NCBI GenBank assembly: GCA_004294855.1
Contig: SHOI01000011.1
Span: 1-35,873 of the forward strand
DNA: 35,873 nucleotides
Direction of reading: 5' to 3'
From: Sphaerochaeta sp.
Lineage (GTDB): Bacteria > Spirochaetota > Spirochaetia > Sphaerochaetales > Sphaerochaetaceae
Below are positions 19,152 through 35,720 of the stretch, in pieces; the stretch's first letter is position 1; each line of letters opens with the position of its first letter. The notes below the pieces were generated by a model, which saw nothing but the letters and a program-made list of their open reading frames with translations, did no database searches and was not told the DNA's origin. Both the position numbers and the translations under genes were made by a program.

Positions 19152-19464
19152 GGCAAAACCATGTTTTTTCACATCTTTCTTAACGTGAGAACGCCCGGTT
19201 TTTGTTGTATCTGTTGCAGTATTTTTTATTTCATGTATTCAAATACAACATATTTGTTGCGGATTTTTACCGTTTTACGAGACTTGACCTTGTGTAAACC
19301 AATCGTTGTGAAGTGTCAAAATCAACTATTTCTCAATTTCTGTCAACATACCTCCGAATTCCCCAATTTATGCGAAATTTACGACAATTTTGATGATTTA
19401 TCTGTATTTATTCCCGCTAATGAGGTAGAATGGAGGTATCAAAACATCTGCAAGGAGCGAATAG

Positions 19465-23077: not shown

Positions 23078-24277
23078 TTATTTGATGCGCTGCTTTCCCT
23101 TTTCAAGGATTTGCTCAAGCTTGGCCGCCGGGTCTTTGAAGCGGGCAAGGAAGATCATCGCCGCGATGACGTAGGGCTTGTAGCTCGCTTCCTTGTAGAG
23201 GTCGACGATGTATCGATCGAACACCGATGCTTCGACCTCCCCTTCCTTGCAGGAGACGCCGGTGATGTCGGCGGGCAGACAGTGCATGTAGAGCGCCTTG
23301 CCGTCTTTGGTGGTGGCCATCAGCTCTTCGGTGCAGGTCCAATCCTTGAACTTGGCGTTGTTCAGCAGGCAGCGCTGCTCCAGTTCCTTCAGCCCGGCCT
23401 GGTCGTTGTGCTCGACGATCTCGGTCCGCTCTTCCATCACCGCGAACGGCGCCCAGCTCTTCGGATAGACGATGTCGGCATCCTTGAACGCTTCGGCCAT
23501 CGTGTCGACCCGCTTGTACGATCCACCGTTGGATTCGGCGTTCTTTCTGGCGACTTCCTCGACCTCGCTCATCACGTTGTACCCTTCGGGGTGAGCGAGC
23601 ACGACATCCATCCCGAAGCGGGTGAAGAGCCCGATGACTCCCTGAGGAACGGAGAGCGGCTTGCCGTAGGAGGGGCTGTACGCCCAGGTCATCGCCACTT
23701 TCTTGCCCTTGAGGTTCTCCACGCCACCGAAGTGGTTGATTACATGGAGCATGTCCGCCATCGTCTGCGTCGGGTGGTCGATGTCGCATTGGAGGTTCAC
23801 CAGCGTCGGCCGCTGTTCCAGCACCCCCTGGTCGAACCCTTCCTGGACGGCGGAGGCGACTTCCTTCATATAGGTGTGGCCTTTGCCGATGTACATGTCA
23901 TCCCGGATCCCGATCACATCCGCCATGAAGCTGATCATGTTGGCGGTTTCCCGAACGGTCTCGCCGTGGGCGATCTGGCTCTGCTCTTCATTCAGATCCT
24001 GAACCTCCAGGCCAAGCAGGTTACAGGCGCTTGCAAAGCTGAACCGGGTTCGCGTTGAATTATCGCGGAAGTTGGAAATTCCAAGACCGCTTGAAAACAC
24101 TTTCGGCGAGATGTTCGCTTCCCGCATCGCGCGAAGAATTTCGGCGACTTGAAACACTGCGGCAAGTTCATCATCGGTTTTGTCCCAGGTAAGGAAGAAG
24201 TCGTCGAGATACATCCCTTCGCTCTTCAGCGTTTTGAGCTTCTCGATCATTGTTTTAATGGCGGTTTTGTCTTTCAT
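23078..24277 (-). CDS. ygeW: YgeW-type putative carbamoyltransferase (ATCase/OTCase superfamily)
   Basis: STRTRFSFASACNLLG, GETVRETANMISFMADVIGIRDD, CDIDHPTQTMADMLH, KVAMTWAYSPSYGKPLSVPQGVIGLFTRFGMDVVLAHPEGY, YMHCLPADITG. Confidence 0.92.
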   Translation of the reverse strand: MKDKTAIKTMIEKLKTLKSEGMYLDDFFLTWDKTDDELAAVFQVAEILRAMREANISPKVFSSGLGISNFRDNSTRTRFSFASACNLLGLEVQDLNEEQSQIAHGETVRETANMISFMADVIGIRDDMYIGKGHTYMKEVASAVQEGFDQGVLEQRPTLVNLQCDIDHPTQTMADMLHVINHFGGVENLKGKKVAMTWAYSPSYGKPLSVPQGVIGLFTRFGMDVVLAHPEGYNVMSEVEEVARKNAESNGGSYKRVDTMAEAFKDADIVYPKSWAPFAVMEERTEIVEHNDQAGLKELEQRCLLNNAKFKDWTCTEELMATTKDGKALYMHCLPADITGVSCKEGEVEASVFDRYIVDLYKEASYKPYVIAAMIFLARFKDPAAKLEQILEKGKQRIK

Positions 24278-24314: not shown

Positions 24315-24352
24315 GGACAATAATACTCTACCACAGCGGAATATTATTGTCC
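24315..24352. repeat. inverted repeat GGACAATAATA...TATTATTGTCC (operator, attenuator or terminator)
   Basis: Perfect 11-bp arms (24315-24325 and 24342-24352), 16-nt loop. On the minus strand the hairpin is followed by GGATTTTTTT. Confidence 0.75.
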
Positions 24353-24353
24353 A
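24325..24353 (-). promoter_or_regulatory. candidate sigma70 promoter for ygeW
   Basis: Minus strand TGGACA-N17-TAGAGT with an extended -10 TG (TGGTAGAGT); overlapped by an 11-bp inverted repeat. Confidence 0.4.
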
Positions 24354-24359
24354 GAAATT

Positions 24360-24377
24360 TGTTGCAGTTTGTTGCAT
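24360..24377 (+). promoter_or_regulatory. candidate transcription-factor site TGTTGCAGTTTGTTGCAT upstream of ygeW
   Basis: 17/18 identical (reverse complement) to the site at 35507-35524 next to the ygfK promoter; 6 nt from the candidate ygeW -35. Confidence 0.5.
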
Positions 24378-24386
24378 TCAAGGGGA

Positions 24387-27263
24387 TCAGAGCTTGCCCA
24401 TCTCCCTGAGTAACTTCTCGGGAGTGAAGGGCCATGACCTCATCCAAACTCCTACTGCATCATGAATTGCAACCGCGATCGCCGGGGCTGCCCCGTTGGT
24501 CGAAATCTCACTGATCGATTTCGCTCCATAGGGCCCGACCTCGTCATCGACGTCGATCAGGATCGCCTTGAAATCCTCCGGCTGCTCGGTGATCATCGGC
24601 ACGCCATAGTCGCCCAGGCGGACGTTCTGGATATACCCCTTTTCATCGATCGTCATATCCTCATAGAGGGTATGCCCGATCGACTTCAACGCCGCTCCGT
24701 ACATCTGGCAGAGCGCCATCTCCGGATTGATCGGGGTTCCCGCGTCCTGAAGGGCGTAGTACTTCTCGACCTTGATCTGCCCGGTTCGGGTGTTGACCGC
24801 GACCTGGACAAAATGAGCTCCGTACGGAATCGAGTTGTGTTCCGTAACGAAGGAACCCTTGCCCATCACCTGGCCGCGACCGTCGCCCTGCAACGCATTA
24901 TACCCCAGCGTGGCATAGGAGACCGATGCTCCCGTTTTGGTCGAGTACACCTCCCCCGGGGCACGAAGCGCGAGATCTTCGGCCTGCTCGCCGAGCTGGT
25001 GGGCGGCTTCATCGAGGATGTTCCGCTTCAGATCTTCGATCGCATAGTAGGTGGCATTGCCGCTGAAGTACGTCCCCGAAGATGCATATGCTCCGGTATC
25101 GAAGGGACAGCTGTCCGTATCACCGCTGGTAACGTTGACTTGGTCAAGGGTGACGAAGAGGCCTTCGGCAGCGATCTTGGCGTGAATCGTATCCAGACCG
25201 GTTCCGATATCCGCTCCGCCGGAAAAGAGCTGGATGTTCCCGTCGGGAAGCAGTTTCGCCCATGCATTGCTGTGGTCGAGACCCGGAAGACCGCTACCCT
25301 GCTGAATGATGGCAAAGCCTTTACCGATCTTCCAATCCCCTCCGGGACCCTTTTCCTTCTTGCCCCAGTCGATCATCTTCGCACCCTTGGCAAGCGCTTC
25401 ACCAAGACCGCAGGAGCCGACGGGAACGACCTTGCCTTCCCGGCCTTCACCGAGGCCGCGGAGGATTTCAAGCATATAGCCCGACTCGATTTTGTTCTTG
25501 TCCACCAGATCGTAGTAATCGATCCCAAGCCCATCCGCCAATTCCGCAAGAGCGGTCATCATGGCATAGGTGCCTTTAGGGGCGCCATAGCCCTGATATG
25601 CTCCGGTCGGCGGGATGTTGGTGTAATAGGTGTAGACGTCGAATTTCATGTTGTCGCACTTAAGGAGCGGCAGCGTCTTCGAACAGGCGTTCATCGGAAC
25701 GGTCAGACAGTGGTTTCCATACGGACCGGTGTTCGCCCGGACATCCATGTATACTCCGGTGAGCGTTCCATCCTTCTTCGCTCCAAGCTTCATCGTGATC
25801 CGCATCGGGTGCCGGGTGGAGTTTGCAATGAACTCCTCTTCCCGGGTATTCCGATAGTAGACGGGTTTGCCGGTCAGCCAAGTCGCATACCCGACGAGAT
25901 CTTCAACGAGAATATCCTGCTTGGAACCATACCCGCCGCCGACCCGTTCCTTGATCACCCGCACCTTGTGTTCGGGAATCTCGCACACCCGGGCGACAAT
26001 CCGCCGGACGTGGTAGGGAACCTGCGTTGAGGCGTGAAGAACCAGTCTTCCTCCATCAATCTTAGCGTAGCAGACGTGCGGCTCCAACGGCGTGCATTGG
26101 ATCTGGTTGGTCTGGTAGGTGCGCTCGATCACGAGATCCGCTTCCTTGAACCCCTTCTCGACATCCCCGATCTCCCCGTGGGCGGCGCTGGCGATGTTCC
26201 GTCGGATGTCCCCGTGAAGCGGGAACTGATAGATCACCTTGCCATCCCGGGGATCGGCGCCCTTGTTGTACTCATCAAGCCCCTCGGGAGCGCCGACGAC
26301 GTATTCGACGACCGAGTTGTGCACCAGACTCGCTCCCTCGGCCATCGCCTCCTCGACGGTGAACACCGGCTTGAGCACTTCGTACGTGACCTTGATCAGC
26401 TTCAGCGCTTCGCGGGCGATTTCAATGGTTTCCGCAACGACCGCGGCGACCCGGTCGCCGACGTGGCGAACCTTCCTGTTCATCAGCTTGCGGTCGTACG
26501 GGCTGGGTTCGGGGTTCCCCTGGCCGGCCTGCATATAGTACACATCCGGCACGTTCTTGTGGGTGATGACCGCCACCACCCCCTCCAGCGCCTCCGCTTT
26601 GGCGGTGTCGATCTCGGTGATGTACGCCATCGCATGGGGGCTTCGAAGAATCGCCATCGAATAGTAGCCCGCCTGAAGCCGGTCTTCCACGAACGCCGCC
26701 TCTCCGGCGACGAGGGTCGGTCCGTCGACTTTCCCTTTCGGCTTTCCGACATACGTGAGATGATCGCGGAACGTGGGGCTGATCGGGGTCTTGTACTTCC
26801 CGAATTCGATCAGCTCGCGGGCCAGCTGGACCGCAAGATAGTAATGTTCGTATCCCGCATCCCGGATGAAGATGCCGCTTAAGACTTCTTTGATCCGCTC
26901 GCGGGTGGGATTGGGTTCATGCTTCAGAAGCCAGGTCAGCAGCAACGCCGCCTGAGGGGCGTTGTAGGCGCTCTGGACGACTCCCGCATCGATCATCGCC
27001 CGTTGGACGGGATTCAGGTTCCGGCTGTTTCCCATCGAATCGGCGGTGAGGATCTCTCCTCCGTCCGCCTGAACCGCATTCATCAGGTTTGCGTACACGG
27101 GCAGATCGTTGAAGATGATCGTATCGCTGCCGGCAAATCCGTCCCCGTCATCGCTGTCGCGGACGTTGGTATATCCGAGGCGAACCAGCATCGCCCGCAA
27201 TGTTTCAGAGCCATCAACGTCAACCCTGTGTCTTTTTCCGTTTACCGTGAATTGAATGGTCAT
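24387..27263 (-). CDS. xdhD: XdhD-family selenium-dependent molybdenum hydroxylase (putative xanthine/purine dehydrogenase catalytic subunit)
   Basis: 958 aa; molybdopterin-binding XDH features (VAGEAAFVEDRL, YQTNQIQCTPLEPHVCYA, ERVGGGYGSKQDI, PPTGAYQGYGAPKGTYAMM, SGGADIGTGLDTI, YGAKSISEISTNGAAPAIAVAIHDAVGVW). The N-terminal ferredoxin-like region lacks Cys, as I recall for E. coli XdhD. Confidence 0.9.
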   Translation of the reverse strand: MTIQFTVNGKRHRVDVDGSETLRAMLVRLGYTNVRDSDDGDGFAGSDTIIFNDLPVYANLMNAVQADGGEILTADSMGNSRNLNPVQRAMIDAGVVQSAYNAPQAALLLTWLLKHEPNPTRERIKEVLSGIFIRDAGYEHYYLAVQLARELIEFGKYKTPISPTFRDHLTYVGKPKGKVDGPTLVAGEAAFVEDRLQAGYYSMAILRSPHAMAYITEIDTAKAEALEGVVAVITHKNVPDVYYMQAGQGNPEPSPYDRKLMNRKVRHVGDRVAAVVAETIEIAREALKLIKVTYEVLKPVFTVEEAMAEGASLVHNSVVEYVVGAPEGLDEYNKGADPRDGKVIYQFPLHGDIRRNIASAAHGEIGDVEKGFKEADLVIERTYQTNQIQCTPLEPHVCYAKIDGGRLVLHASTQVPYHVRRIVARVCEIPEHKVRVIKERVGGGYGSKQDILVEDLVGYATWLTGKPVYYRNTREEEFIANSTRHPMRITMKLGAKKDGTLTGVYMDVRANTGPYGNHCLTVPMNACSKTLPLLKCDNMKFDVYTYYTNIPPTGAYQGYGAPKGTYAMMTALAELADGLGIDYYDLVDKNKIESGYMLEILRGLGEGREGKVVPVGSCGLGEALAKGAKMIDWGKKEKGPGGDWKIGKGFAIIQQGSGLPGLDHSNAWAKLLPDGNIQLFSGGADIGTGLDTIHAKIAAEGLFVTLDQVNVTSGDTDSCPFDTGAYASSGTYFSGNATYYAIEDLKRNILDEAAHQLGEQAEDLALRAPGEVYSTKTGASVSYATLGYNALQGDGRGQVMGKGSFVTEHNSIPYGAHFVQVAVNTRTGQIKVEKYYALQDAGTPINPEMALCQMYGAALKSIGHTLYEDMTIDEKGYIQNVRLGDYGVPMITEQPEDFKAILIDVDDEVGPYGAKSISEISTNGAAPAIAVAIHDAVGVWMRSWPFTPEKLLREMGKL

Positions 27264-28081
27264 CGTTGGCCTCCTTTGAGAAATTCACCATAGAGCATCG
27301 CGACTCCTTCACCGGCGATATAGCGCTTGTACTCGCCGCTGCCGGTGTAGTCGCTCTTCACCGTTACTTCCGCCGCAACCGACTTGGCGATCTCCTCTTC
27401 GGTGGTGATTTCACCTTTCTCGATCCTGCTCTCGGTCTCCTTGAGCCGCAACACTCCGACGGTGTAGACCGCGGCGTACACGCGGACCTTCGAAAGATCC
27501 TTCTCCGCTCCGAAGCCCACCGTGACCGAAGCCCGGTTCTGGCTGCTCACCGCAAAGCGGAGCGTCCCGACGAACCGGTCGCTTTTCCTGATCTTGAATC
27601 CCAGGATCAGGGCTCCCTGATAGGAGGCGAAGTGCTCGTGGTACTCACAAGCCGGCACTTCATCCTCGGCGTACTTGCCCTTTTCATTAATTGTAGCGAT
27701 CAGGAGGATCGCCCTGCTTGCCAGCAGAACCGGTCCGACATACGAGCGACCGAGCATCAACGCGAAGTTTCCCCCGATCGTCGCCATGTTCCGCCGGGTG
27801 AAGGATCCGCAGAAGAGCGCAGCCTCCTTCAACCAGGCGGGAACCGCCGAACTGGTCGCGATCGTCTGCAGGGTCGCCATCGAACCGATGATGATCTCAT
27901 CTTTTTTCTCTTCAATCCTGTTCAATCCAAGCTTGGAAAGATCGATCGCCACCTCCGCCTGCACAGCGGATTCCAGGCGGTTGATCTCCGTCCCTCCGGC
28001 GTAGAACACACTCTTTGCATGTAAGCGTTTCAGGCTCAACGCTTCCTCTTTACTTTGTGCTACGAGGAATTTCTTCATCAT
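27260..28081 (-). CDS. ygfM: FAD-binding subunit of molybdenum hydroxylase (YgfM-like)
   Basis: FYAGGTEINRLESAVQAEVAIDLSKLGLNRIE, IIGSMATLQTIATS, RRNMATIGGNFAL CoxM/FAD_binding_5 motifs; ATGA overlaps on both sides. Confidence 0.9.
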   Translation of the reverse strand: MMKKFLVAQSKEEALSLKRLHAKSVFYAGGTEINRLESAVQAEVAIDLSKLGLNRIEEKKDEIIIGSMATLQTIATSSAVPAWLKEAALFCGSFTRRNMATIGGNFALMLGRSYVGPVLLASRAILLIATINEKGKYAEDEVPACEYHEHFASYQGALILGFKIRKSDRFVGTLRFAVSSQNRASVTVGFGAEKDLSKVRVYAAVYTVGVLRLKETESRIEKGEITTEEEIAKSVAAEVTVKSDYTGSGEYKRYIAGEGVAMLYGEFLKGGQR

Positions 28082-29466
28082 AACGCCTCCTTTCGCGCTG
28101 CTCGATCAAGCATTCGCTTGCTGATCGCATTCGCTTTTTCGGCCAGTAGCGCTTCATCGAATCCGACCAGGGTTCCCCGGTCGACCACCACCTTGCCGTT
28201 GATGATCGTATAATCAGTGTAATGGCTGTCGCCGCAGAAGAGAAGAGCCGCAACGGGGTCACTTTGAGCTCCGGCATACGCCGCAGTCGAGAGATCCCAG
28301 ATCGCGGCATCGGCGGCCCACCCCTCTTCAAGCTTGCCGACGTTGGTGAAGTTCAGCATCTTCGCCCCGTTGATTGTTCCCATCGTGAACGCTTCTTTTG
28401 CGGTAAGCGCATCGCTTCCGTAGCGAACCCGCTGCAGCAGCAGCGCCTGGCGTACTTCGGCGAGCATGTCGGATGAATCGTTCGAAGCGGATCCGTCGAC
28501 GGCGATGCCGATGTTGATCCCCATCGGAAGCATCTCGGCGACCCGGCAGATGCCGCTTCCCAGGCGCATGTTGGATGAGGGGCAGTGGGCGATGTGGCTG
28601 CCCGTGTCAGCGATGATCTTCAGCTCCTCGTCGTTGAAGTAGATCCCGTGGGCGTAATACACGTCTTCACCGATCAGGTCGCACTCCTGCATCAGTTCGA
28701 CGGGTCTCATCCCGTACATCTGGAGGCAGAAATCATTCTCATCGGCGGTCTCGCACAGGTGGGTATGAAGTCTGGCTCCGTACTTCCTCGCCAAGGCCGC
28801 CGTTTCTTTCATCAGTTCCTTTGTAACCGAAAAGGGGCTGCAGGGAGCGAGGGCGACTTTCCGCATCGCATCGGCGCTACTGTCGTGGAAACGCCGGATC
28901 GAGTCTTCGCTGTGGCGAAGGATCTGCTCTTCGGTCTGCACCACGGTATCAGGCGGAAGTCCCCCGTCCTTCTTTGACAGGCTCATCGAACCCCGGGTGG
29001 GGCTGAAACGCATTCCGAGCGTTTCGGCCGCCTCGAACTGGATCGCCATGGGGTCGCCCTGAACGTGGTGAGGATAGACGTAGTGATGGTCGGTGGTGAG
29101 GGTGCACCCCGTCCTCATCAACTCCGCCATTGCCAGAAGCGAGGAGTAATAGATGCCCTCTTCATCAAGATATTTCCAGACATCGTAGAGGAACGTCAGC
29201 CAATCGAAGAGCTTGGCGTTCTGAACCGCCGGATGGTTTCGGGTCAAGGTTTGATAAAAGTGGTGGTGGGTGTTTACAAGCCCCGGCAGAACGACGTGCT
29301 TCGAACAGTCGATCACCCGATCGACGCCCTTGGAGGAGATCTTTCCCGCAGGATCGATCCTGCCTACTTTGTTGTCGATGATAAGCAGATCGGCGCCGTG
29401 GAGGGCCTCCTTGTCGAAGCTCGTTTGAAGGGTGTAAATGTTTTTCAACAAAAGCGAGGAACTCAT
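28078..29466 (-). CDS. amidohydrolase, 8-oxoguanine deaminase-like (AtzB/TrzN-related)
   Basis: LPGLVNTHHHFYQTLTR, GCTLTTDHHYVYP, GMRFSPTRGSMSLSKKDGGLPPDTVV, VALAPCSPFSVT, RLHTHLCETADENDFC, HCPSSNMRLGSGI, VDGSASNDSSDMLAEVRQALLLQR. Start at internal Met behind AGGGAGA. Confidence 0.85.
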   Translation of the reverse strand: MSSSLLLKNIYTLQTSFDKEALHGADLLIIDNKVGRIDPAGKISSKGVDRVIDCSKHVVLPGLVNTHHHFYQTLTRNHPAVQNAKLFDWLTFLYDVWKYLDEEGIYYSSLLAMAELMRTGCTLTTDHHYVYPHHVQGDPMAIQFEAAETLGMRFSPTRGSMSLSKKDGGLPPDTVVQTEEQILRHSEDSIRRFHDSSADAMRKVALAPCSPFSVTKELMKETAALARKYGARLHTHLCETADENDFCLQMYGMRPVELMQECDLIGEDVYYAHGIYFNDEELKIIADTGSHIAHCPSSNMRLGSGICRVAEMLPMGINIGIAVDGSASNDSSDMLAEVRQALLLQRVRYGSDALTAKEAFTMGTINGAKMLNFTNVGKLEEGWAADAAIWDLSTAAYAGAQSDPVAALLFCGDSHYTDYTIINGKVVVDRGTLVGFDEALLAEKANAISKRMLDRAARKEAL

Positions 29467-29681
29467 GCCATTTCTCCCTATAGAGTCGTGGTCGTAGCGG
29501 CATGCGCTGCTGCGCAAGGAAGGTGATGGGGTGAGGAGTCCTTCAGCACCTTGATTTCCACGCCCGCCCAATGCGGCTCCCCGTGGATTCCATTATCTAA
29601 AATGATTGATAATGGGGTCTTCTCATAAGACAACCACAAGACCGAAGCCCTGTGGTTGCCGATTGCCAAAAATCAAAGAGG
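29467..29681 (-). other. 215-nt intercistronic region with two consecutive predicted RNA hairpins
   Basis: Minus strand: CAACCACAGGGC-UUCG-GUCUUGUGGUUG (12-bp stem including two G-U pairs, UUCG tetraloop; 29631-29658), then CCAUUAUC-N10-GAUAAUGG (29590-29615). No U-tract directly follows either. Confidence 0.5.
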
Positions 29682-30905
29682 TTATTTTCCTCGTGCCTCA
29701 AGGGAGTACGGCAGCATCGCATAGAACGCCGCACAGATCTCAAGGTCATCCACCCGGTTGATCTCGTTCGGTGCGTGAGCCTGATTCTCGTCACCGGGGC
29801 CGAAACCGATCGCCGGAATCTTGTGCCGGCCGGTGGTCGCCACGAGGTTCGTGGAGAACGTCCACTTGTCGACGACCGGCTTTTTCCCGAAGAGCGTCTT
29901 ATACGCATCGATTCCGCTCTGAACGAGGAAGTGATCCTCATCAAGCTTCCACGTCGGGAAATAGAGCTCCTGCGAATACTCCTTCTTCGTCCAACCGATC
30001 TTCTCGTAGTTGGGCATCTCGACGATGAAGGAATCGGGAGCGTCGCCGGTGGCTTTGGAGATGTACTCCCGAACCTGAGCGATCGCCATGTCGGCATCTT
30101 CACCCCACGTCAGGCGGCGGTCCAGATAGAGCATCGCATAGTCGGCGACGGCGCACTGGGAAGGTCCCTTGACATCCATCACGCTGACGGTGATCGTTCC
30201 CTTTCCGAGGAAGCCGTCCTCATCCGGCTGGAGATCCTTGTTCAGCTGCTCCATCGCAAGGGCGGCGCGGGCTGCCTTGTAGGCGGCGCTCACTCCGCGC
30301 TCGGGGGCGGAGCCGTGACAGGAGATCCCGCTCAAGATGACCCGGATCTCCATTCTTCCGCGGTGTCCGCGATAGAGGCGGCAGCTCGTCGGCTCGGTGG
30401 AAACGACCAGATCGGGCTTGAGGCCTTCCTCTTCGATCAGATACTTCCAGCACATTCCGTCACAGTCTTCCTCCATCACGGTGAAGGTGAAGTACACGGT
30501 ATACTCGCCGCCGTAGCCCAGCTCCTTGAGGATCCGGCCGGCGGTGATCATTGAAGCCGCCCCGCCCTTCTGGTCGGATGCACCTCGTCCATAGACGATA
30601 CCGTCCTTGATCTCCCCGCTGAACGGATCAAAGTTCCACAGATCGGGGTTTCCCACTTCAACGGTGTCGATATGAGCATCAAAGGCCAGCTTCTTCGGCC
30701 CGTTTCCCACTCGGCCGATCACCGAGCCGAGGCCGTCGATGTATACCTCATCAAAGCCGGCTTCCTCCAGCAGGGTAACAATCAGGCGGGCTACATCTTC
30801 CTCTTGGGAGCTGTAGCTCTTCGTCTTCACCATTTTCGAGAGGTTCTCAGCGGTGTAGGAGCGGAGTTCTTTCGCTCGAGCTTTGATCTTTTCATGCATG
30901 TTCAT
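29682..30905 (-). CDS. ygeY: YgeY-type M20 family putative selenium-metabolism hydrolase/peptidase
   Basis: SYSSQEEDVARLIVTLLEEAGFDEVYIDGLGSVIGR, LAFDAHIDTVEVG, GIVYGRGASDQKGGAASMI, YTVYFTFTVMEEDCDGMCW, GHRGRMEIRVILSGISCHGSAPERGVSA. Confidence 0.92.
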   Translation of the reverse strand: MNMHEKIKARAKELRSYTAENLSKMVKTKSYSSQEEDVARLIVTLLEEAGFDEVYIDGLGSVIGRVGNGPKKLAFDAHIDTVEVGNPDLWNFDPFSGEIKDGIVYGRGASDQKGGAASMITAGRILKELGYGGEYTVYFTFTVMEEDCDGMCWKYLIEEEGLKPDLVVSTEPTSCRLYRGHRGRMEIRVILSGISCHGSAPERGVSAAYKAARAALAMEQLNKDLQPDEDGFLGKGTITVSVMDVKGPSQCAVADYAMLYLDRRLTWGEDADMAIAQVREYISKATGDAPDSFIVEMPNYEKIGWTKKEYSQELYFPTWKLDEDHFLVQSGIDAYKTLFGKKPVVDKWTFSTNLVATTGRHKIPAIGFGPGDENQAHAPNEINRVDDLEICAAFYAMLPYSLEARGK

Positions 30906-30946
30906 CGTTGTACCTACCTTCCTTTTCGTATATATTCTTCGCCTTG

Positions 30947-32269
30947 TTACGGGGCGATAGTGTCCACTTCTTTCCATACTCGCTTGGCGACCTTCGCCGC
31001 CTCGCGGTAGATCTCATCCACATCGAGATGGGCGAATGTTCGATTCTCCATCACGACCTTCCCATCGACGATGACGCTCTCGACGCAGTTGCTGCTCATC
31101 CCCCAGATGAAGTGACTGGCGGCATTCTCCTGAACGAGCGGGGTCGGGTTGTGGTAATCGGTGATGACCAGATCGGCGACCATTCCCGCCTCGACCCGCC
31201 CGAAGGAGCCGTCGAAGTATTTCTCCACCAGCCGATAGCCCCGGTTCAGCGCCTCGACGTACTGCGGCGGCCACCAGGAGAGTCCTTCGTCCTTGTGCTT
31301 GAAGAATCCGATCTTCAGCTCCTCGAACATATTCCCACCGCAGCCGTCCGTTCCGATCAGAAGGTTCTTCACATCCTGAATGTGGGAGCAGTAGCCGACG
31401 TGGTTGTTCATGTTCGATCGGGGGTTGTGGGCGAAGAACACCCCTCGTTCATTGATCTTCCTGATCTCGTCCTCATTCAGATAGAGGCCGTGAACCAAGA
31501 GGGCGTTATCCGTCAGGAGCCCATACTCGTCGAGCCGGTCGACGATGTCCATCCCGTACCGGTGGTGGCTGTGGGCCACGTCGTACCGATCCTCGGCGAC
31601 GTGGAGGTGGATTCCCACCTTCGTCTTCTCAACGAGGTCGCCCATCAGCTTCAATCCCTCATTGGGGATCGTGAAGGGGGCGTGTCCCCCGATCATCGCC
31701 TTGACGAGGCTGCTCTTCTTCGAACGCTCGATGAAGCGGCGGCTTTCCTCCACCCCCGCCTCGACCTCGGCCATTCCGCCGTTGCGGTCGGTGATTTCAT
31801 AGCAGGTGGATCCGCGGATTCCGACCTCCTCCATCCCCTTGGCGATCGTGTCCAGAGAGCCGGCGATATAGGAGGGGCTGGCGTGGTGGTCGATCGCGGT
31901 GGTCGTCCCCGCCATGATCGCATCGAGCGAACAGATCAGGGAGCTGTAGTAGCACGCCTCCTCATCCAATCCGCGGTCCAAGCGCCACCACCACTCCTTG
32001 AGAACTTGGATGAAGTCCCTTTGGGGTCCGGCCTGGATCAGCATTCCCCGTGAAAGTCCGCTGTAATAGTGGTGGTGCGAACAGACGTTGCCCGGCATCA
32101 CCGTCTTATCGGTTCCGTCGATCACCTTCTTGGCGGCAACCCCCTTGGCGGCATCCTTGCCGACCTTGGTGATGGTGTTTCCATCGATGACGATATCGAC
32201 GCCCTCCAAAACGTGGAACGGGGGCTCGGTCTGCATGATTCGGGTATTCTTGATTACGAGATCTGCCAT
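30947..32269 (-). CDS. ssnA: putative aminohydrolase SsnA
   Basis: VMPGNVCSHHHYYSGLSRGML, WWWRLDRGLDEEACYYSSLICSLDAI, TTTAIDHHASPSYIAGSL, HLHVAEDRYDVAHSHHRYG, HNPRSNMNNHVGYCSHI, LIGTDGCGGNMFEE: close to my recollection of E. coli SsnA. Confidence 0.93.
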   Translation of the reverse strand: MADLVIKNTRIMQTEPPFHVLEGVDIVIDGNTITKVGKDAAKGVAAKKVIDGTDKTVMPGNVCSHHHYYSGLSRGMLIQAGPQRDFIQVLKEWWWRLDRGLDEEACYYSSLICSLDAIMAGTTTAIDHHASPSYIAGSLDTIAKGMEEVGIRGSTCYEITDRNGGMAEVEAGVEESRRFIERSKKSSLVKAMIGGHAPFTIPNEGLKLMGDLVEKTKVGIHLHVAEDRYDVAHSHHRYGMDIVDRLDEYGLLTDNALLVHGLYLNEDEIRKINERGVFFAHNPRSNMNNHVGYCSHIQDVKNLLIGTDGCGGNMFEELKIGFFKHKDEGLSWWPPQYVEALNRGYRLVEKYFDGSFGRVEAGMVADLVITDYHNPTPLVQENAASHFIWGMSSNCVESVIVDGKVVMENRTFAHLDVDEIYREAAKVAKRVWKEVDTIAP

Positions 32270-32272
32270 TTC

Positions 32273-35200
32273 TTACTCCTCAACCTCTCCCAGGAGGTAG
32301 CTGTAGGAGGCAAACACCTCCTCGACGATCGCGGCGACTTCATCACTGAGGCCTTCCTCTTCACCGACGAGCACTCCGTCCTTATCCAGTTCACACGGAT
32401 AGAGCCTGCCGTCGACCCGGATCAGGATCGTACCGTCTTCGACGAGGAGGCCGCTGTTGGTGGAGTTCTCAAAGTCGTCCCGGCGACTGAAAAGGGTGAA
32501 CTTCTTCTTATAGGGTCCGCCGTCATACGGGCAGAACGTTTCACAGTTTCCACACTCGTTGCAGAAGGCATCAAGGTGAAGAATCTGGAAAGGATTGTCG
32601 AACAGACCGGTATTGCGAAGATCGATCGGAACGTTCGCCCGGTTGGGGCAGACGTCGACGCACTTGTTGCAGATGTAGGAGCATTCCATGCAGCGATCCG
32701 CTTCGCGTCGGGCAAACCCTTGCTCCCCGAAAAGCTTCGAGAAGAGAATCCGGGATTTCCTGAGTTCCAGCTCTCCGAAATACTCATCCTCCTCCGCTAC
32801 CAGCTCTTCGATGGGCTGATCTTCCTCATCGTGGATGTGCTCTTCATCCTCATCGATCTCAACCCCTTCCGCTTCGAGGATCCGATCAATCGCATCCTCG
32901 ACGGCATCGCGGGCGCTGGCGATGCAGCGGACGACCGTCGAAGGTCCGCTCTGCGCGTCTCCGATGACGTAGACGCCGTCGATCGCCGAGGCCTTGCTCT
33001 TCTGATCGGTGATCGCCCACCCTTTCTCGTTGAGGGGAACACCGTACCAGGAGAAGATCTCCCCGTCCACTTTTTCCCCGATCGCGGTGATCATCGTGTC
33101 CGCCCGGATGGTGAACGTCTCATCGGAGGGAATCGGCCGTCTTCGACCGCTTGCGTCCTTTTCACCGAGGACCATCTTGCGGACGGTCAGCATGTTCCCT
33201 TCAAACCCTTCGGGATTCGCCAGATAGATGAACTCGGCTCCTTCCGCCCGGGCGTTCTCGAACTCCTCATGGTCGGCGGGCATCTCCGCCCGGGTTCGGC
33301 GGTAGATGACCGAGACATGCTCGACGCCGGGAATCCTCAAGGCCGCACGCGCTCCGTCCATCGCGGTGTTTCCTCCGCCTACGATCACGACATGCTTGCC
33401 GAGGGTGCACTTGGAGGGATCCTTTCGGAATTGACCGAGGAAATCCAGCGAGGTGATCACCCGGGTCCGATCACCGACCAGGGTCAGTTCATTGTCGATC
33501 TCGCTTCCGATCGCATAGAAGATGTGGGTGAACCCCTGCTTTTTCAGGGTTTCGACGGTGAGCTTTTTGGTATCCACCCCGAAGTGGAACTCAACTCCGT
33601 GGGCCTTGATGAACTCGACGTCGCTTTCGATCGCTTCAACGGGCAGGCGGAAGCCGGGAATGACGTGCCGCACGACTCCTCCGGCGGACTCCTCCCGTTC
33701 ATAGACGGTGGTATCGAATCCCGCCCTGGCGAGGAAGTAGGCGGCGGACAGGCCGCCGGGGCCCGCTCCGATCACCGCGGCGCGGTATTCGGTTTTTTCG
33801 GTCGCGCCCTCCCAGAGCTGCAGATAGTCGGCAAAGCCGCGCTCGACGGCGATCCGCTTCATATCGCGGATCTTCACCGCCCCCTCGTAGTCCATCCGGG
33901 TGCAGTGGAGCTGGCACTGATGATCACAGATGTGGCTGGTGATCGCAGGAAGCGCGTTCTTCTCGTAGATCACCGAAAGCGCTTCCCCGTAGCGGCCTTC
34001 GCCGACGAGCTGGACATACTCGGGGATATCCTGATGAATCGCACAGGCGTTCACACAGGGGGCGACGTAGCAGTCAACCAGCGGAAGCTGTTCATGAATC
34101 TTAATCGAATCGGTTCCTCTGAACTCTTTCGTCGTTGCCGTATAGAGTCCATCCTGGATATCGGCAACGAGCTTTTCCAACGCGGGAACATCGATGGTTT
34201 CCCGCTTCCATCCGTCACTGGATTCAAGAATCTCGACCATCTGCTTCAGGCGGGTGTATCCACCCGGCTTGAGCATATCGGTGGCGAGAGTGATCGGGTG
34301 GATTCCGCACTCAAAGAGCGCCTTGACGTTCACGGCGGTAGCTCCCCCGCTGTAGGAGATTGGAAGCTTGCCGTCAAACTCCTTGGAAAGAAGCAAGCCG
34401 ACATTGGTGGACAAGGGAAGAAGCGCCCGACCGGACATATACATCTCTTCCCCGGGCAGCTGCTCCTGGTCGTTCACCGAACCGAGGGTGTTGGTGAGCT
34501 TCACACCGAAACCGAGGCCTTTCTCCTTCGCCAGGTCCACGAGCCGATGCAGCATCTTGACCGCATCGGGGTATTGGAGGTCATTGTCGAAGCTTTCCTG
34601 TTTCAAGGTGATGTAGTCATATCCCAGATTGTCCAGGATTCTTCGGACGTTCTCATATCCCAACAGGGTCGGATTAAGCTTTACAAATGTGTTGAGGCGC
34701 TTTTCCGTAAGCATATAGGAACAGATCGCTTCAATCTCGGCCGGCGGACATCCGTGCATCGTCGAAAGAGTAACGGACGGAGTCAGATTCGGGCTAATCT
34801 TGTCGATCGTGCGAAGCAGTCTTTCCTCTTTCCCTTCCCAGGGGGTGCCTTCGAAGAGTCCTTCCTTGAGCAGGGTTTCAAGCTCGTTCCGGTAGCGGGC
34901 AAACCGCTCATCCTTGCCGGCGTCGATCATCGTGTCGATGAACGCCTGCATCCGGGGAGTCTTGATCCCTTCCAGGTTGTACCCGACGGACATGTTGAAG
35001 ATGAAGGAAGGCTTGCCGAACTCCCGATCGTTGAGCGTCGCATCGAGCACATGCAGGATGTACCACGCCTTGATGTATTCATCCGCCGCTTTGGGCAAGG
35101 TGAACTCGGTCGACCACTCGACGTTGTAGCCTTCATCCCGGGCATCGATGCAGGGCTTGTCCACCTCGAGGGTATCCAAGATCTGAACGGTCTTCAGTTC

Positions 35201-35440
35201 GATGAAGCGGCCGCCGACCAAATAGCTTGCAACGATGTTCTGGGCTAATTGGGTGTGGGGCCCTGCAGCGGGACCAAGGGCGGTGCTGCACGTCTGGCCG
35301 AAGATACCGAGCTGCTTCTCTCCCTTATCATGATAGAAGAGATCTTCACTGATGCTGAAGATAGAGCCATGATTGCGATATTCATTGACGATTCTGTGTA
35401 AGAGCTCGACAAATGGAACGGGTCGCATAATGTCCGACAT
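32273..35440 (-). CDS. ygfK: YgfK-type putative selenate reductase / FAD- and Fe-S-containing oxidoreductase
   Basis: 1055 aa; DHODH-like N-terminus, GltD-like middle (AAVIGAGPGGLSAAYFLARAGFDTTVYEREESAGGVVRHVIPGFRLP; VVIVGGGNTAMDGARAAL), C-terminal Cys clusters CMECSYICNKCVDVCP and CNECGNCETFCP. Confidence 0.93.
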   Translation of the reverse strand: MSDIMRPVPFVELLHRIVNEYRNHGSIFSISEDLFYHDKGEKQLGIFGQTCSTALGPAAGPHTQLAQNIVASYLVGGRFIELKTVQILDTLEVDKPCIDARDEGYNVEWSTEFTLPKAADEYIKAWYILHVLDATLNDREFGKPSFIFNMSVGYNLEGIKTPRMQAFIDTMIDAGKDERFARYRNELETLLKEGLFEGTPWEGKEERLLRTIDKISPNLTPSVTLSTMHGCPPAEIEAICSYMLTEKRLNTFVKLNPTLLGYENVRRILDNLGYDYITLKQESFDNDLQYPDAVKMLHRLVDLAKEKGLGFGVKLTNTLGSVNDQEQLPGEEMYMSGRALLPLSTNVGLLLSKEFDGKLPISYSGGATAVNVKALFECGIHPITLATDMLKPGGYTRLKQMVEILESSDGWKRETIDVPALEKLVADIQDGLYTATTKEFRGTDSIKIHEQLPLVDCYVAPCVNACAIHQDIPEYVQLVGEGRYGEALSVIYEKNALPAITSHICDHQCQLHCTRMDYEGAVKIRDMKRIAVERGFADYLQLWEGATEKTEYRAAVIGAGPGGLSAAYFLARAGFDTTVYEREESAGGVVRHVIPGFRLPVEAIESDVEFIKAHGVEFHFGVDTKKLTVETLKKQGFTHIFYAIGSEIDNELTLVGDRTRVITSLDFLGQFRKDPSKCTLGKHVVIVGGGNTAMDGARAALRIPGVEHVSVIYRRTRAEMPADHEEFENARAEGAEFIYLANPEGFEGNMLTVRKMVLGEKDASGRRRPIPSDETFTIRADTMITAIGEKVDGEIFSWYGVPLNEKGWAITDQKSKASAIDGVYVIGDAQSGPSTVVRCIASARDAVEDAIDRILEAEGVEIDEDEEHIHDEEDQPIEELVAEEDEYFGELELRKSRILFSKLFGEQGFARREADRCMECSYICNKCVDVCPNRANVPIDLRNTGLFDNPFQILHLDAFCNECGNCETFCPYDGGPYKKKFTLFSRRDDFENSTNSGLLVEDGTILIRVDGRLYPCELDKDGVLVGEEEGLSDEVAAIVEEVFASYSYLLGEVEE

Positions 35441-35472: not shown

Positions 35473-35500
35473 ATTTTATAGGAGTTTGCCGAGAAGTCAA
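35473..35500 (-). promoter_or_regulatory. candidate sigma70 promoter of the ygfK operon
   Basis: Minus strand TTGACT-N16-TAAAAT, about 33 nt from -10 edge to the ygfK start, which has an AAGGAG ribosome-binding site. Confidence 0.6.
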
Positions 35501-35506
35501 CGTAAA

Positions 35507-35524
35507 ATGCAACAAATTGCAACA
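35507..35524 (+). promoter_or_regulatory. candidate activator site ATGCAACAAATTGCAACA upstream of the ygfK -35
   Basis: Two TGCAACA copies at 10-bp spacing, 6 nt upstream of the candidate -35; 17/18 match to reverse complement of 24360-24377. Confidence 0.5.
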
Positions 35525-35603
35525 GTTGGATTTTCTCGCCGACTGTGATTTTATTGAAGAAGAAAAAGGGCTGTGGTAAAATTGAATTGGAAGGAGGGCT
35601 GTT

Positions 35604-35720
35604 ATGTTCTGGATCAACAAAGAAGATGAGAAAAAAATGGCTCTTATCGCTTTCCTCATTGTTTCTTTCCCTGTTTGGGGATTAGCCATTGTGCTTCTCC
35701 TTGCTTTTATCTTTTATTAA
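35604..35720 (+). CDS. 38-aa putative single-pass membrane small protein
   Basis: MFWINKEDEKKMALIAFLIVSFPVWGLAIVLLLAFIFY*; strong AAGGAGGG ribosome-binding site 5-6 nt upstream; charged N-terminus then one hydrophobic span. Below the ORF-track size cutoff. Confidence 0.55.
   Translation: MFWINKEDEKKMALIAFLIVSFPVWGLAIVLLLAFIFY

Follow-up and report, generated by a model that had tools for sequence, protein, structure and literature searches.

The ygfK gene at the end of this Sphaerochaeta contig is preceded by a short repeated element, which raises the questions of whether the element is a regulatory site, which protein would read it, and with what effect on transcription. The analysed window is the whole stretch of 35,873 nucleotides, and is itself one whole contig of a 2.2-Mb genome in 270 contigs. 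The role of ygfK in reductive urate degradation has been described (PMC12507026). The first-pass annotation had proposed a layout of an 18-mer, N6, TTGACT, N16 and TAAAAT at this gene, and both the letters and the coordinates were borne out: TGTTGCAATTTGTTGCAT lies at 35507-35524 on the minus strand, upstream of the ygfK ATG at 35440, and the 8 bp between the second TGTTGC and the -35 hexamer read ATTTTACG (Table 1). We compared this arrangement across 56 orthologous ygfK promoters and found that the distance from the operator to the -35 was 8 bp in 37 promoters, 9 bp in nine, 10 bp in nine and 18 bp in one, the single outlier being one helical turn further away. The promoters themselves are near consensus, matching at 10-11 of 12 positions.

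The same alignment bears on whether the cluster is controlled by sigma-54 and an enhancer-binding protein, a mode of control found in certain other bacteria that carry these genes. The ygfK/ssnA genes reportedly come up in a study of Clostridiales sigma-54 regulons, but nearly all of the 56 ygfK promoters keep a -35/-10 pair 16 bp apart and no enhancer-binding protein was found among the window ORFs of at least 150 aa. We regard sigma-54 control as very improbable here. Taken with the conservation and the shared sites described below, the comparisons support the reading of the element as a regulatory site of a sigma-70-type ygfK promoter that is conserved, linked to purine genes and held in common with ygeW.

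Table 1. Coordinates of the operators, promoter elements, target genes and candidate regulator; positions refer to the window unless a contig is named.
Feature	Position	Strand	Remarks
ygfK operator TGTTGC-AATT-TGTTGC	35509..35524	-	halves at 35524-35519 and 35514-35509; exact core in same-genus loci with upstream sequence and 35/37 other regulator-bearing genomes
ygfK -35 TTGACT	35495..35500	-	TTGAC(A/T/G) 8-10 bp past operator in nearly all orthologous promoters
ygfK -10 TAAAAT	35473..35478	-	TANAAT at 16-bp spacing in almost all of the 56 promoters compared
ygfK, flavin/Fe-S reductase of reductive urate degradation	32273..35440	-	TIGR03315 Se_ygfK, 1402 bits (cut-off 835)
SsnA	30950-32269		
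8-oxoguanine deaminase by NCBIfam	28078-29571		
remaining purine/urate cluster: Mo-hydroxylase subunits, 8-oxoguanine-deaminase-like protein, ygeY, ssnA	24387..32269	-	
ygeW operator, direct repeat opposite to gene orientation	24360..24375	+	orientation and -35 distance conserved in same and other genera
ygeW -35-like TGGACA	24348..24353	-	
ygeW -10-like TAGAGT	24325..24330	-	preceded by TG (TGGTATAGT in relatives)
ygeW, knotted carbamoyltransferase, target gene	23078..24277	-	TIGR03316, 755 bits (cut-off 500)
dpaL/ygeX site	contig C200		71 bp before gene
xdhA-type gene site	contig C124		71 bp before gene
regulator gene site	contig C187		11 bp before gene
candidate regulator, 321 aa, HTH-WYL-WCX	contig C187, L006, 525-1490	-	

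The element had been described as two TGTTGCA copies that could also be read as an inverted repeat, and the alignment separates these two forms. TGTTGC-N4-TGTTGC with a 10-bp period is a direct repeat in 56/56 ygfK sites, and all twelve of its bases are invariant apart from one C at position 1; in the spacer, position 7 is A or G and the remaining positions vary. The inverted repeat TGCAA-N4-TTGCA was rejected, as its pairs 7-14 and 8-13 are kept in only 36/56 promoters, while the invariance of TG at positions 1-2 and 11-12 is explained only by a direct repeat. Among the collected loci, 10 bp was also the only enriched distance between TGTTGC words (150 distinct cases, the next being seven at 11 bp), a count that is biased since the loci were largely gathered by means of the motif itself. 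The ygfK promoter of G039 (L035) carries two tandem operator-like copies, TGTTGCAGTTTGTTGTG and CGTTGCAGAATGTTGCG, 27 bp apart.

We searched for further copies of the element in the window and in the genome to which it belongs. With up to three mismatches the window holds two matches, versus 0.04 expected in shuffled sequence. From dinucleotide composition the exact 12/12 direct repeat is expected 0.002 times per window and 0.12 times per 2.2-Mb genome; two exact copies were observed in the window and three in the genome, with two further copies carrying one mismatch. The five sites found in the genome with TGTTGCRNNNTGTTGCR at no more than one mismatch lie before ygfK, ygeW, dpaL (ygeX), xdhA and a gene for a WYL transcription factor (TF). 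The four enzymes all belong to purine/urate breakdown, their names having been assigned on the window genes themselves, on dpaL and, for xdhA, on an orthologue. The genome-wide search returned purine genes and the TF gene rather than a scatter of random matches with no purine link. The copy beside ygeW, an exact match to the 18-bp pattern at 24360-24377, had been singled out as the only near-identical one; this holds within the window, but the genome has the dpaL, xdhA and TF-gene copies besides. Matches such as those with three mismatches on contigs C131 and C225, and one within a nicotinamidase-like ORF (L074), were taken as chance.

The association with purine genes extends to relatives, for which mostly draft MAGs were compared. 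In 24 genomes of the same genus, 231 forward matches with at most one mismatch were found versus 27 for the reversed pattern, with sites at ygfK, ygeW, xdhA, carbamate kinase, adenine deaminase, purine nucleoside phosphorylase and xanthine permease. In 22 other genomes from five families, 77 exact copies were found versus 0 of the reversed pattern. From BLAST of the neighbouring genes and reading of the loci, about 70 of these 77 copies lie at purine/urate genes or the regulator gene: ygfK, arcC (carbamate kinase), ygeW, adenine deaminase, purine permeases, Mo-hydroxylase genes, dpaL, an 8-oxoguanine-deaminase-like gene, ygeY and the regulator itself. Copies left unassigned are, for example, those in loci L309, L316, L318, L334, L359 and L363. 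The excess over the reversed pattern in these 22 genomes, together with the retention of all 12 bases in 55/56 ygfK promoters, leaves a negligible probability that the element is a product of chance or a compositional repeat. The operator is present at every same-genus ygfK locus for which upstream sequence is available and in three further families. In G002 (L085) an exact operator lies upstream of an ABC substrate-binding gene of the BMP type, whose substrates are possibly nucleosides.

The first-pass annotation had seen no TF gene in the window and named no regulator. A candidate can now be proposed from another contig of the same genome, the HTH-WYL-WCX protein on contig C187, a distant relative of DriD and PafBC. 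Its HTH_11 domain (Pfam; residues 9-46) scores 27.6 bits against a cut-off of 25 and is nearly invariant among orthologues, which share 50-95% identity; its WCX domain (PF25583; residues 245-317) scores 27.8 bits against a cut-off of 23.9, and this part matches DriD in a profile search of the PDB. The Pfam WYL profile gave no match in the orthologue L109 up to E=10. The best Foldseek matches of the regulator model were DriD, PafBC, BrxR and CapW, all WYL proteins; DriD and PafBC aligned over the full length at E ~1e-10, with TM-scores of 0.2-0.3 from a weak AlphaFold model (pLDDT 62.7, pTM 0.33). WYL domains bind nucleic acid through arginines; in the orthologue alignment, R192 and R194 are conserved. 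Among named genomes, the regulator search returned Sphaerochaeta and other Sphaerochaetaceae. A PfkB-family kinase gene (L006, 1660-2835) is divergent from the regulator gene in the own genome.

We then asked whether this protein and the motif occur together. Class-wide, 125/297 genomes have ygfK and 51/297 the regulator. When the DNA upstream of ygfK was read in 60 more genomes, the 12-base core, exact and in the orientation of the gene, was present in 35/37 genomes with the regulator, 71-137 bp before the ATG, versus 1/23 without it (Fisher p=4e-13). This p-value overstates the case since the counts are genomes and not independent events, and as the TF and the motif each mark a clade, their co-occurrence is partly shared ancestry. 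Three members of the same family, G223, G200 and G105, have kept ygfK; the regulator is absent from them and they contain zero exact motif copies genome-wide. For a case built on genome sequence, this linked loss is cleaner evidence than the co-occurrence p-value. The 16 TF-less genomes of other families hold two stray motif copies in total. The regulator gene itself carries a site directly after its -10 in 21/21 same-genus copies (L088-L108), in all of which one base of the second half is changed (TGGTGC or TGATGC, never the perfect word), and the constancy of this mismatch suggests a weaker, autoregulatory site. Of the genomes outside the genus, 13/20 have a site of no more than one mismatch at a distance of up to 200 bp from the regulator gene, versus 0/20 in the reversed control; none was seen near it in G025, G026 and G039.

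The co-occurrence, linked loss and autoregulatory sites make the WYL protein the most likely binder of the operator. An alternative is that a different regulator binds the motif and the WYL gene is merely one of its targets: a direct-repeat operator is unlike known WYL sites, and there are exceptions in both directions, in that G292 (a 96% complete MAG) has five exact sites with no TF found, while G057, like G076, has the TF and no site at ygfK. The conserved sites show no further TF gene, however, and the only other one beside them, encoding a GntR protein, is in only 6/32 motif-bearing genomes; together with the loss of TF and motif in the same three family members, this makes a different regulator unlikely. 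The GntR protein, which in some species lies beside carbamate kinase, was itself rejected as the regulator, being absent from 26/32 motif-bearing genomes. As a whole, the explanation by a Sphaerochaeta-type purine/urate operator and a WYL protein that binds it and activates ygfK appears quite probable from these genomic comparisons.

In the mechanism that we propose, each TGTTGC of the operator would be bound by one subunit of the 321-residue factor, and the one-turn distance between the two tandem words would bring both DNA-binding heads to the same side of the helix. The factor bound at ygfK, ygeW or dpaL would lie 7-10 bp ahead of the -35 and most likely recruit RNA polymerase, through a contact with alpha-CTD or sigma region 4, when its WYL domain holds a purine, a urate-pathway compound or a nucleotide; of these candidate ligands, the first two are the natural guess. 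At its own gene, the site just past the -10 would limit synthesis of the regulator.

The direction of control at the individual promoters is less uniform. The position of the element relative to the -35 had been called typical of an activator site, which fits ygfK, where the gap is helix-phased, but does not carry over to the arcC, xdhA, adenine deaminase and TF-gene sites, which overlap or follow core promoter elements. The arcC site overlies the -35 and the spacer, with a good -10 following 8 bp on; the xdhA site falls between the two hexamers, and those of adenine deaminase and the TF gene come after the -10. By position, the adenine deaminase and TF-gene sites look like repression and the ygfK, ygeW and dpaL sites look like activation, whereas arcC and xdhA could be of either sign, their sites being placed like those from which DriD and SiwR activate. 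The same operator and the same WYL protein could also work by repression throughout, with a purine-derived ligand freeing the purine promoters. The placement of the four sites within or past core elements would suit this, as would the ygfK promoter being already near consensus, and one direction of control per pathway is the simplest logic. Yet the ygfK site is outside the core promoter, its helix-phased gap is kept in five families with an outlier displaced by exactly one turn, and the ygeW gap is similar; moreover, DriD activates while bound over the -35, contacting alpha-CTD (PMC12340889), so the arcC position is no proof of repression. We consider uniform repression a serious possibility but the lesser one, and favour activation at ygfK with moderate confidence.

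Reading the candidate as an activator invites comparison with the studied WYL proteins. DriD, a homodimeric WYL activator of Caulobacter crescentus (PDB 8tp8, 9pfv), has the same order of HTH, helical bundle, WYL and WCX, is the best PDB fold match of the regulator model (315 columns) and the best by sequence in WCX, works as an activator on sites that coincide with the -35 or lie close to it, and has a site at its own promoter. It differs in its operator, a 20-bp pseudo-palindrome ATACGAC-N7-GTCGTAT versus the direct repeat TGTTGC-N4-TGTTGC here, and in sensing ssDNA after DNA damage (PMC12340889), whereas the regulon here is purine/urate degradation. The mycobacterial WYL activators SiwR and PafBC share the domain order and act at sigma-70-type promoters, with PafBC also a fold match, but their regulons are DNA damage or stress; the SiwR site is a 19-bp imperfect palindrome between the -35 and the -10 (PMC10693628). 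The (pseudo-)palindromic operator of the DriD/SiwR type is not found at the ygfK sites, although it is a trait of the studied members and not a definition of the family. BrxR and CapW, also of the WYL family, are weaker fold matches to the regulator model, and they are said to control phage-defence genes and not metabolism.

The target genes are orthologues of the reductive uric acid degradation cluster, xdhD-ygfK-ssnA-hyuA-ygeW-ygeY-ygeX-yqeA, which specifies the route XdhD-YgfK-SsnA-HyuA-YgeW-YgeY-YgeX, an anaerobic pathway biochemically solved only recently (PMC12507026). In that paper the terms "regulator", "transcription factor" and "WYL" occur zero times, and in the non-subscription literature searched, no paper joined "WYL domain" and "purine catabolism". 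The papers found describe WYL-family regulators for DNA damage and phage defence. We think it slightly better than an even prospect that a WYL regulator has here turned metabolic, sensing a purine/urate compound and switching on anaerobic urate degradation via tandem heads on a 10-bp direct repeat. If true, a WYL protein would present tandem DNA-binding heads instead of mirror symmetry, and the tandem direct-repeat operator differs from the operators of the studied WYL proteins. The analysis offers a candidate regulator-operator pair for anaerobic urate degradation, conserved in no fewer than five spirochaete families and accompanied by a gene list, and a candidate promoter system that would respond to urate or purines.

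Within the genus, and in several others too, ygeW has a reversed site with a gap similar to that of ygfK and a TG-extended -10, and the genes between the two promoters are probably transcribed from the ygfK promoter, to judge from gene order. A perfect 11-bp inverted repeat, GGACAATAATA-N16-TATTATTGTCC (24315-24325 and 24342-24352), spans the ygeW promoter from -35 to -10; its arms seem to covary in relatives (GGACAATGG.../...CCATTGTC and GACAGGGGAA.../...TTCCGCTGTC), and it looks like a second conserved element, a hairpin or an operator. In the window, the intergenic region that separates adenine deaminase from the NCS2-type permease contains no operator with 0-1 mismatch, though one was expected from relatives. 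This gap does hold degenerate TGTTGY words at 19203-19270, TGTTGTATCTGTTGC (9-bp spacing) and TTTGTTGCGG, possibly a decayed or altered form of the exact operator that relatives have there. A 38-residue membrane peptide (MFWINKEDEKKMALIALFLIVSFPVWGLAIVLLLAFIFY) is encoded by a small ORF on the plus strand at 35604-35720, divergent from ygfK and with a promoter-like TTGAAG-N17-TAAAAT of its own at 35554-35582; in the closest relative, G023, this region differs in sequence. In G001 (L068, 1003-11923), a CRISPR array and cas-like genes lie close to the ygfK cluster.
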